Below, piece after piece: positions 30,556 to 53,804 of a stretch of 64,000 nt of DNA. The notes beneath the pieces were generated by a model that was not told the DNA's origin, did not search any database, and was given only the letters and a program-made list of their open reading frames with translations. A program made the position numbers and the translations under genes. Numbering within the stretch: position 1 is the stretch's first letter; each line of letters begins with the position of its first letter. Location of the stretch: NCBI GenBank assembly GCA_031257295.1, contig JAIROX010000006.1:79392-143391 (forward strand), written 5' to 3'. The DNA is from Candidatus Nomurabacteria bacterium (GTDB lineage Bacteria > Patescibacteriota > Saccharimonadia > Saccharimonadales > Saccharimonadaceae).

Positions 30556-30584
30556 TTGCACCCCCCCCCGATCCGTGCTAACAT
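30556..30584 (+). promoter_or_regulatory. Promoter with C9 tract in the spacer (site A)
   Basis: TTGCAC (30556-30561), a spacer of exactly 17 nt, then TAACAT (30579-30584). Nine Cs (30561-30569) run from the end of the -35 box through the first half of the spacer. One base gained or lost would change the spacing. It drives the small charged protein at 30653. Confidence 0.75.
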
Positions 30585-30652
30585 GCATGGAATCGGATGG
30601 GCGTATTCAATCAAGGGTACGCTATTGCATTTTTTCAGGAGGTGAAAAGAAC

Positions 30653-31021
30653 ATGAAGTATCAACCGCATCTGCTACCGGGGTTCAAAGATGACTGCCAA
30701 AGGGTAGAGAAGGCATTACTGACTGGCTATTCTGACGTTCATGAAGAGGAACTGAAGAAGCTCAAAGAGGAGGTTATCCCAAGGTGCGACAAAGACAAAG
30801 CAAGGAATAACTACAAAGGTCAGCACAAACGCGATAAGGCTTATACCCTTGATTGCCTTAAGAGCCTCGTCCATAGGCTTGAGCGTAAAGTGTCAGCTAA
30901 GGATAAGGCTATGGATAAAGCCGTGAAGGCGGAGCGAGATCGTCGTGATATCGAACGTTATTCCACAGGTATACCTGAGGAGGAGCTCAGGGAAATTGAG
31001 GAATCGCTGGTCCAAACGTGA
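30653..31021 (+). CDS. Small charged helical protein, unknown
   Basis: 122 residues from ATG 30653, preceded at 30637 by AGGAGGTGA, a full match to the anti-Shine-Dalgarno. It is rich in Lys, Glu, Arg and Asp, and likely coiled coil (EEELKKLKEEV, KAMDKAVKAERDRRDIERY). No signal peptide, membrane helix or known motif is seen. It sits alone between the C9 promoter and a strong terminator. The leader (about 60 nt) holds a weak hairpin (GCGTATTC with GGGTACGC) and a T6 run. The family is not recognised. Confidence 0.65.
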   Translation: MKYQPHLLPGFKDDCQRVEKALLTGYSDVHEEELKKLKEEVIPRCDKDKARNNYKGQHKRDKAYTLDCLKSLVHRLERKVSAKDKAMDKAVKAERDRRDIERYSTGIPEEELREIEESLVQT

Positions 31022-31052
31022 GTTCATTAACTAACAACTCCTTGTAATTTAT

Positions 31053-31088
31053 ATAGCCTCGAGTCAACAGACTCGAGGCTATTTTTTG
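31053..31088 (+). terminator. Strong terminator after small protein A
   Basis: A perfect 13-bp stem (31053-31065 with 31070-31082), 4-nt loop, followed by T6. Confidence 0.92.
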
Positions 31089-31109
31089 TAAAAACAAAGT
31101 CACTAGGAC

Positions 31110-31138
31110 TTGCGCCCCCCCCCGAAGCATGCTAGCAT
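31110..31138 (+). promoter_or_regulatory. Promoter with C9 tract in the spacer (site B)
   Basis: TTGCGC (31110-31115), exactly 17 nt, then TAGCAT (31133-31138). The run of nine Cs is 31115-31123. Layout and the following GA-N6-GC match site A almost base for base, although the genes downstream are not alike. Confidence 0.75.
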
Positions 31139-31219: not shown

Positions 31220-31579
31220 TTGAATAAAATGCTTACTAGTCTAAAAGAGCCTGAAGCGCGAAGAGTGCTCAAGGAAACCGTCGGCGTAAAGCTGAAAGTC
31301 ATCGAAGATGACGTCAACCATGGTAACAATGTGAATTACGAGTACATCCGTAAAGATGTTAACTCGACGTTGAAACAGCTTCAACGAGTACACGGCGATC
31401 CGCTCATCAAAAAGCACGAAAGGCTCATGGGCGATATCTCAAAACACATGGAAAAGTGCAGAAAGCTGCTAAAGAAGATTAATAGCCAAACTGATGGTAA
31501 ATATCGAGGTAGTAGCCGCTACTGCAGCTGTAAAAAAAGGAGGAGGGGAGGACGAGCAGCTTTCGCAACAACCAGATAA
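31220..31579 (+). CDS. Small basic protein, unknown
   Basis: 119 residues from TTG 31220, which has AGGAG 6 nt upstream; ATG 31229 is the alternative but 15 nt away. The body is helical and basic (YIRKDVNSTLKQLQRVH, HMEKCRKLLKKI). The end is a basic patch with a Cys pair (SRYCSCKKRRRGGRAA). It may bind nucleic acid, but no family is recognised. Shares promoter style, leader style and terminator with small protein A, but not its sequence. Confidence 0.6.
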   Translation: MNKMLTSLKEPEARRVLKETVGVKLKVIEDDVNHGNNVNYEYIRKDVNSTLKQLQRVHGDPLIKKHERLMGDISKHMEKCRKLLKKINSQTDGKYRGSSRYCSCKKRRRGGRAAFATTR

Positions 31580-31588
31580 ACCCTGAGT

Positions 31589-31618
31589 CGCCCCGGCAAA
31601 TGCTGGGGCGGTTTTTTT
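31589..31618 (+). terminator. Terminator after small protein B
   Basis: A 9-bp stem from CGCCCCGGC to GCTGGGGCG around AAAT, followed by T7. Confidence 0.92.
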
Positions 31619-31626
31619 ACAACCAA

Positions 31627-31880
31627 AAAGCCCCGCTGCACAGGTAAGGGTGGGCATCACCTAGCAACGGGGCTATTTGGCCCTTCAACACACCCATTGG
31701 GCAAACCGGAAGTTCCGGGGCGTGACCCACCTCACACATTGCGGGGTCCGCCGGTTAAAGGGATTACAATGCGCTCGGTTTCTTGATTGGCTGCGAACAG
31801 CAATCAAGCTTGCCAAAAGTGGAGGTAACACCACTAGGGTGTGACTTTTAGCTATTCAAGCGCAAAGTAACATCAAAACT
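31627..31880 (-). ncRNA. Candidate structured RNA divergent from dprA
   Basis: No credible reading frame in this stretch. Read on the minus strand it forms nested stems: AAAAGT..ACTTTT enclosing ACACC..GGTGT; CTTGATT..AATCAAG with an inner GCTG-TTCG-CAGC tetraloop; CGCATTG..CAATGTG; CCGGA-ACT-TCCGG. It ends in AGCCCCG..CGGGGCT followed by TTTTT, a terminator that faces away from dprA. Conserved cores of RNase P RNA, tmRNA, 6S or SRP RNA were looked for and not found. The order and density of stems favour a real RNA of about 250 nt. Confidence 0.45.
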
Positions 31881-34396: not shown

Positions 34397-34426
34397 GTAA
34401 AACACGTCTACCCCCCCCCGAGTCAA
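34397..34426 (-). promoter_or_regulatory. C9/G9 tract between dut and topA (site C)
   Basis: Nine Cs at 34411-34419. On the minus strand TTGACT (34426-34421) is followed by C, G9 and a weak TTTTAC with an 18-nt spacer, a possible dut promoter. On the plus strand the bases after the run (GA-N6-GC) match sites A and B, but no -10 box lies at the right distance. The orientation is therefore uncertain. Confidence 0.5.
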
Positions 34427-52171: not shown

Positions 52172-53719
52172 CTATTTTACAGGCCTGATAAACCGGCGCG
52201 CGCCCACTGCCCCAGCCACCAGTGTCACACTTATCACCGGTGCAACCACTAGTTTAGGAGCTATAGATGTTGAGTTATCATAAGTTGTTGCACCACCAAA
52301 GCCAGTAATTGGCGACTTTAAGCTACCAGCGCATGTCCCAGCCTGGCTATTAACGATGCCGCCACTCGCGCCCAACTTAATGGTATGCGCACCCAGCGTT
52401 AATTTAACGGTGTGGCTTAAATAGGCCGAGCCACCATTAAAGTTACTCGCCGATAATGTAACCACATAGCTACCTAGATCTTTCCTACCAAGCAAGGTAT
52501 CTACCAGATCTCGTATCGTTAAACTACGCACTACACCGGTGCCCACAACAGTACCGTCACTTAATGTAGTAGTAAACTCCAAATTAACTGGGGTGGCGGT
52601 GTTTGTTAAACCTAGCATAGCAGCCAACAACGCCCTGGCCTCGGCTTCGGTGATACTAAGTAGGCTTTTGAGTTCAGGGATAACTACGTTATTGATATAT
52701 TGCTCTATACTATTGATAGTGTTCTGAATCAAGCCCTTGATGCTATTAATAGCTTGATCAAATACCAACCCAGCCATAGTCGCCTCGGTTTGAGCCACAG
52801 CGCGGGCACGAGCCTGTTCAGTCGCATCGGCTTCACTGGCTTTTTGAGCCGCATAAGCTGCCGGGTCAGTAGGCGGATTCGCTAATAGGTCTTTGTAATC
52901 CTGGTAGTCAGACAAATTACCTAACACCACCTGGATTGAGCTCTTGATACCATTGCAAGTACCGGACAGACCGACCAAAGCAAACAGATTGCAATTTAAG
53001 CTGCCCAAAGTGCCATTCAAGCTCGTCGCATTACTGATAATCCAATCGGCTGAAATACCCCCAGCCGGGATCCCCAACGCACTGGCAATCGCATTTTTTA
53101 CAGTCGTATTACCAATACCATTATATGCATCGTCAGCAGCTGTCGCGGCCTGCCTAATTTGGTCAACCACACCACCTGGCGCTTCATATGCATCCACCTC
53201 TGCCTGCCAGTCAGAGGCGTCTTGTGTTGCCTTAGCATAGGCCGCGGCATAAGCGTTCGTGCTTACGCTTGGATCATATTCACGCACATAGGCGATATTT
53301 TCAACAGTTTGCACCAACGTCGCACGCGTTTCAGCTAGTAATTGATCAATCGCCGCTTCGACATTGCTTGCACCAGCTACGGTCGCTGCTATCATTTGGT
53401 TAACATATTGTTCTATAATATTGCGCGCAATCCCAGACCGTATACTAATCTGGTCAATCAGCCTGTCGGCCCTTCTTTGCAGCTGAGCCAAAGCAGACTT
53501 AGCGCTGCTAGTTAGCCTTAAATCCGGATTGATCATTGCCGTGTAGGTTGCTATGTCGCACGCTGCGGGCAAACCTGAGTTAGCGCCCGTCGTATAGTTC
53601 CAAATTCCGCTATCAGCCAGGCTAATATCCAGTGCGCTTGCATTAGCGACTGGCGCGAAGGCACCTATAACCATAATCCCGGTCGCCACAAATAGGCTCA
53701 TTTTTCTAACTGTCGGCAT
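52172..53719 (-). CDS. Surface protein with signal peptide, helical body and C-terminal anchor
   Basis: 515 residues. A signal peptide (LFVATGIMVIGAFAPVANASA, cleavage near residue 28) leads into a long Ala-rich helical region (about 70-370), a beta-rich domain (about 375-475, VNLEFTTTLSDGTVVGTGVV), and a final hydrophobic segment with basic tail (LVVAPVISVTLVAGAVG, ARRFIRPVK). That is the layout of a sortase-type anchor, but no LPxTG is present. I do not recognise the family. A G9 run lies in its promoter, so it may be switched on and off. It could be an adhesin for host contact, which is inference. Confidence 0.7.
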   Translation of the reverse strand: MPTVRKMSLFVATGIMVIGAFAPVANASALDISLADSGIWNYTTGANSGLPAACDIATYTAMINPDLRLTSSAKSALAQLQRRADRLIDQISIRSGIARNIIEQYVNQMIAATVAGASNVEAAIDQLLAETRATLVQTVENIAYVREYDPSVSTNAYAAAYAKATQDASDWQAEVDAYEAPGGVVDQIRQAATAADDAYNGIGNTTVKNAIASALGIPAGGISADWIISNATSLNGTLGSLNCNLFALVGLSGTCNGIKSSIQVVLGNLSDYQDYKDLLANPPTDPAAYAAQKASEADATEQARARAVAQTEATMAGLVFDQAINSIKGLIQNTINSIEQYINNVVIPELKSLLSITEAEARALLAAMLGLTNTATPVNLEFTTTLSDGTVVGTGVVRSLTIRDLVDTLLGRKDLGSYVVTLSASNFNGGSAYLSHTVKLTLGAHTIKLGASGGIVNSQAGTCAGSLKSPITGFGGATTYDNSTSIAPKLVVAPVISVTLVAGAVGARRFIRPVK

Positions 53720-53774: not shown

Positions 53775-53804
53775 AATATACCCCCCCCCTGGGTCGGTTT
53801 GCAA
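53775..53804 (-). promoter_or_regulatory. Promoter with G9 tract in the spacer (site D)
   Basis: On the minus strand TTGCAA (53804-53799), an 18-nt spacer ending in nine Gs (53789-53781), then TATATT (53780-53775). The homopolymer touches the -10 box. It drives the surface protein gene. Loss of one G would bring the spacer to the optimal 17. Confidence 0.7.

Follow-up and report, generated by a model that had tools for sequence, protein, structure and literature searches.

In Neisseria meningitidis, the length of a C run in the opc promoter tunes transcription of a surface protein (PMC6389960, citing Sarkari 1994), and shifts from 11 to 12 or 14 C have been seen in recovered clones (PMC6389960). 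Across the N. meningitidis phasome, homopolymers of at least 8 are predominantly variable and G/C runs are over-represented among the strong candidates; many repeats lie upstream of genes and surface determinants are affected (PMC5084427). Within the CPR, a hypervariable repeat gene has been described in Gracilibacterium, where the variation concerns the 9-mer coding repeat of one gene (PMC6851277). No description of phase variation in Saccharibacteria, CPR or Patescibacteria was found in the literature searched (subscription papers and preprints lie outside it). Here, we describe two sites, A and B, in a Saccharibacteria genome that are probably sigma70-type promoters with a slippage-prone C9 run in the spacer, and that would belong to a surface phase-variation set.

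Sites A and B and the units behind them

Sites A and B lie on the forward strand of the window, the whole 64,000-nt stretch of DNA analysed, and share a 29-nt motif with a 17-nt spacer, TTGC[A/G]-C9-GA-N5-GC-TA[A/G]CAT. Site A (30556–30584) has the C-type promoter sequence TTGCAC-C8-GATCCGTGC-TAACAT with its C9 run at 30561–30569, and site B (31110–31138) reads TTGCGC-C8-GAAGCATGC-TAGCAT with its run at 31115–31123. A previous, sequence-only reading of this DNA had placed both boxes correctly, at the right positions and spacing (TTGCAC-17-TAACAT and TTGCGC-17-TAGCAT), and its observation that the tract begins with the final base of the -35 box was exact for both sites. The bases after the tract, which it gave as GA-N6-GC, are GA-N5-GC in A (GATCCGTGC) and in B (GAAGCATGC). 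The full motif, with up to three mismatches allowed, matched twice in the window and was absent from 100 shuffles. Both sites carry an extended -10 element (TGC-TAACAT in A, TGC-TAGCAT in B), and the pattern TTG-N17-TGN-TANNNT was found at only eight places in the window, both strands counted. The match of the boxes themselves to consensus is limited to 3/6 at -35 and 4/6 at -10. As in loci of the opc/porA type, a homopolymer of at least 8 lies between -35 and -10 (C9, 17-nt spacing). Since C9 gives a 17-nt spacing, both promoters are predicted to be ON as assembled. Exact run lengths in assemblies could be off by one.

A complete predicted unit, comprising promoter, leader, ribosome site, small ORF and intrinsic terminator, follows each site. 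Gene A (30653–31021, forward strand) starts with ATG just 3' of an AGGAGG ribosome site and encodes 122 aa; its intrinsic terminator (31053–31088, forward strand) consists of a 13-bp hairpin and a T run (-23.1 kcal/mol). Gene B (31220–31579, forward strand) starts with TTG, or with ATG at 31229, and encodes 119 aa, with an intrinsic terminator (-20.6 kcal/mol) at 31585–31618 on the same strand. Both products are charged and have no family match. They had been described as two small charged proteins unlike each other, in agreement with a BLASTP comparison of A with B (E = 0.85), and an origin as diverged duplicates was rejected for this lack of similarity. Single-sequence structure models were all-helical for both proteins (pLDDT 80 for A and 68 for B) and no hydrophobic segment was found in either; both are apparently cytosolic. 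Relatives of gene A were looked for in 60 genomes and IMG/VR and none were found, a fold search with the model of A gave no match below E = 1, and gene B had no credible relatives in the sets searched, IMG/VR included. A phage or defence origin was rejected (nothing above noise in IMG/VR, PHROGs or PADLOC), as was a known RNA at the locus (a single, sub-threshold Rfam match). Our guess is that the products serve as cytosolic partners or regulators whose switching the cell can tolerate.

Only 3 bp separate the stop codon of pth from the start of site A. In locus L099 of the nearest named relative (JAIRRY010000010.1; 89% identity in Der to the home genome), the gap between pth and the next conserved stretch is ~66 bp, and A and B were therefore assigned to a ~1-kb insert in the home genome (30553–31600), located between pth and a conserved noncoding element and absent there in L099. 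The element itself (31624–31780, between pth and dprA) is strongly conserved in L099 and L100, with invariant blocks that include AAGGGTGGGCATC and CCGCCGGTTAAAGG. No Rfam family reached its gathering score over this interval, which is a candidate structured RNA of Saccharibacteria.

Four C9 runs were found on the forward strand of the window (30561, 31115, 34411 and 53781), whereas C7 and C8 runs were absent and C6 occurred once. The run at 34411–34419 lies between the divergent genes dut (reverse) and topA (forward), with no convincing promoter around it. The tract at 53781–53789 is a G run on the reverse strand and belongs to a second layout, here called G-type: TTGCAA-N9-G9-TATATT with an 18-nt spacer (approximately 53775–53804, reverse strand), followed by the gene for a 515-aa exported protein with a signal-peptide-like N-terminus (52172–53719, reverse strand). 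The run-length distribution of the window is non-geometric. Over 243 kb of the home genome, there were five C9 runs against 0.2 expected and no C7, and A and T runs had no comparable excess at long lengths.

Putative tract promoters in the home genome and its relatives

The home genome (G000; 747,608 bp in six contigs), placed in Saccharibacteria by what its nearest relatives are called, contains 30 G/C runs of 8–10 bases (eight of 8, nineteen of 9 and three of 10). Fifteen of these, read on the G strand, fall within sigma70-like spacers, and 13 of the 15 share the G-type layout TTGNNN-N9-G(8-10)-TANNNT, in which runs of 8, 9 and 10 give spacers of 17, 18 and 19 nt. An automatic count gave 16/30 against a shuffle mean of 1.2, but includes a chance match within an ORF (C3:59071), and 15 is the working figure; roughly 10 of the 30 runs lie within ORFs. 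C-type promoters, with the C run set against the -35 box and nine bases between the run and the -10, are the mirror image of the G-type and number three (A, B and G000:C1:201691) against 0.6 expected. Sites A and B are thus a minor form of a larger G/C-tract promoter set. The proposed 'regulon of unknown small proteins' misjudged the scope of this set, the main part of which is ~15 G-tract promoters before surface-protein genes; A and B are two of just three C-type promoters in the genome and their non-surface products are the odd ones out. A replication-strand-polar (KOPS-like) motif, first suggested by a contig-wise strand bias, was rejected because G000:C4:55569 is a G run on the reverse strand amid steadily positive GC skew; orientation instead follows gene sense.

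Exported or membrane products were encoded by 13/15 G-type genes, whereas the background share among ORFs, taken over 243 kb of this genome, was 34% (P = 3.5e-5); the calls were made with a hydrophobicity rule, which looks for a signal peptide or membrane segment close to the N terminus, rather than with a trained predictor. A surface product is usual, if not strictly required, for opc/porA-type loci, and stands behind these 13 promoters and behind neither A nor B. Domains among the G-type products were TIG, RCC1, ALK_LTK_GRD, Fib_succ_major and DUF2807. This included giant adhesin-like proteins, Gly-rich and with TIG and RCC1 domains, whose lengths run from 1102 to at least 1493 aa, as well as FISUMP proteins, an adhesin-like protein with DUF2807 and a pilin-like protein, the last assigned from its N-terminal sequence without a Pfam match. 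The Gly-rich family PF12810 occurred in 7/11 tract-rich genomes versus 2/50 others. No such tract precedes two other large PF12810 genes of the home genome, and the tract therefore does not simply come with this gene family. The poly-G promoters of giant surface proteins at L047, L060, L066 and L068 in the home genome, and at L097 in a genome of another genus (G031), share a downstream leader, GAGTGTA ... CGAGAGAGAAA, which is possibly a shared post-transcriptional element.

Promoter-like spacers at tracts also exceeded the shuffled expectation (in brackets) in four relatives, among them members of other genera: 13/19 in G035 (0.45), 3/8 in G001, of the same genus (0.2), 4/11 in G262 (0.15) and 4/17 in G198 (0.6). 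The signature GGGGGGGGTATANT (G8-TATANT) matched 74 times in 34 of 295 family genomes, compared to one match for the reversed control, and 18 times in four of 241 phylum-wide genomes (control, three), from which we conclude that the trait is concentrated in the family but not confined there. Within the family it is patchy, with C9 absent from many relatives and present in dozens of copies in others. Run lengths in other genera reach 12–19. At one G198 locus (L230:1213), a G19 run, far longer than elsewhere, lies immediately 5' of the -10-like TAGAAT. The C-type search over the family returned nine matches, and its reversed control six, so the counts alone are no proof of a C-type class; TGC directly preceded the -10 in 7/9 of these matches, across five genera, which is rarely expected by chance. 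Prepilin genes lie behind the C-type sites of G111 (L310) and G164 (L314); the sites of G003 (L311) and G084 (L312) precede genes for a TIG/RCC1-like protein and a membrane protein, respectively. On our best reading, A and B are the only clearly non-surface C-type members of the set.

Run-length differences, mismatch repair and alternative readings

Differences in run length were apparent between copies within a single assembly. Two promoter copies in G262, L232 and L237, carry G10 and G9, respectively, with 30/30 upstream and 59/60 downstream bases identical. The same assembly holds a coding family with a poly-G run six codons into a surface-protein ORF, represented by two G9 and two G10 copies; the G9 copies (L235, L239) open into a signal-peptide protein and the G10 copies (L233, L237:46) stop after 13 codons. 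Run length thus sets whether this surface ORF is open or closed, a form of contingency that does not apply to A and B. The N-terminal domain of MutS (MutS_I) was found above cut-off in 0/61 genomes of the order, compared to 11/14 control genomes. Mismatch repair therefore seems, from gene content, to be absent from the group, and slippage would go uncorrected by the MutS route. In G001, G035 and G262, the number of contig ends less than 200 bp from a run exceeded expectation (contig counts rounded), which may reflect mixed lengths but equally fits repeats or poly-G sequencing bias.

The best and probable explanation of these data is a mechanism in which strand slippage during replication would add or remove bases in the spacer C run of A and B, and the changed C count would alter the -35/-10 distance, such that each gene is switched or tuned independently. 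Its main output would be on/off variety of adhesin-like surface proteins and pilins, to which A and B would contribute a pair of small helical proteins that are apparently cytosolic. For A and B we infer promoter activity, slippage, an effect of length on transcription and the function of the products from sequence. More broadly, we consider it an evenly balanced proposition that promoter phase variation is genome-wide in a family of Saccharibacteria with reduced genomes, with two mirror layouts, independently switches adhesins, pilins and, in this genome, the two small cytosolic proteins, relies on absent mismatch repair for high switching rates and diversifies attachment to host bacteria. 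The Neisseria-like switch originally suggested for A and B fits the wider data better than the rivals considered, given spacer placement far above shuffles in five genomes, the copy-to-copy difference in G262 and the absence of MutS from the order sample, and was amended in scope.

The tract could instead be a fixed structural part of the promoter, either a stiff element that sets promoter strength or one that is read by a regulator or special sigma factor, with a length of ~9 kept by selection and no switching. We regard this as unlikely. The clustering of lengths at 9 in the home genome (19/30) could mean fixation, the single N9-tract-(-10) layout of 13/15 G-type promoters fits this reading, and the common downstream leader of four paralogous promoters (GAGTGTA, CGAGAGAGAAA) is what a co-regulated set would have. 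However, a fixed part sits poorly with the runs of 12–19 in other genera, the one-base difference between near-identical copies, the variability of the fixed stretch itself (2–9 nt), tracts within ORFs where G9 and G10 shift the frame, and a tract placed at the -10 in one class and at the -35 in the other. Exact spacer placement, the 74:1 orientation bias, the bias towards surface genes and the lack of a comparable long-length excess in A/T runs argue, together with the many MutS-less family genomes that lack any C9, against a neutral by-product of absent mismatch repair, in which G/C runs lengthen by slippage and stay where harmless; this reading, which would accord with the missing MutS_I in all genomes sampled and with the ~10/30 home-genome runs in ORFs, is improbable in our judgement. 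Sequencing or assembly artefacts (poly-G calls) are scarcely credible, since the home-genome runs lie deep inside long contigs at consistent promoter positions and recur in unrelated assemblies, even though several runs in relatives are <200 bp from contig ends.

Comparison with described systems

A life on or alongside other bacteria is assumed for Saccharibacteria. Slippage-prone promoters before giant surface proteins and pilins would offer a testable mechanism for cell-to-cell surface diversity, and the tract layout is a simple signature by which such genes can be searched for. Single assemblies would display one expression state only. Slippage phase variation is a known mechanism; as far as the searched literature extends, what is new is that it is proposed for Saccharibacteria, on this scale within a reduced genome and with two mirror layouts.

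The Gracilibacterium case is alike in being repeat-based variation in the CPR, and the text of PMC6851277 contains 0 occurrences of 'homopolymer' or 'promoter'. Compared to the N. meningitidis phasome, the set described here comes from a different phylum and a reduced-genome lineage, and at least half of its members are promoter-spacer sites. With opc, A and B share a C run in the promoter. Switching here is a sequence-based proposal, and the set differs from opc in that A and B encode non-surface proteins, the runs are shorter (8–10) and MutS is apparently missing; many such promoters occur in one 748-kb genome, mostly with a G run set against the -10.
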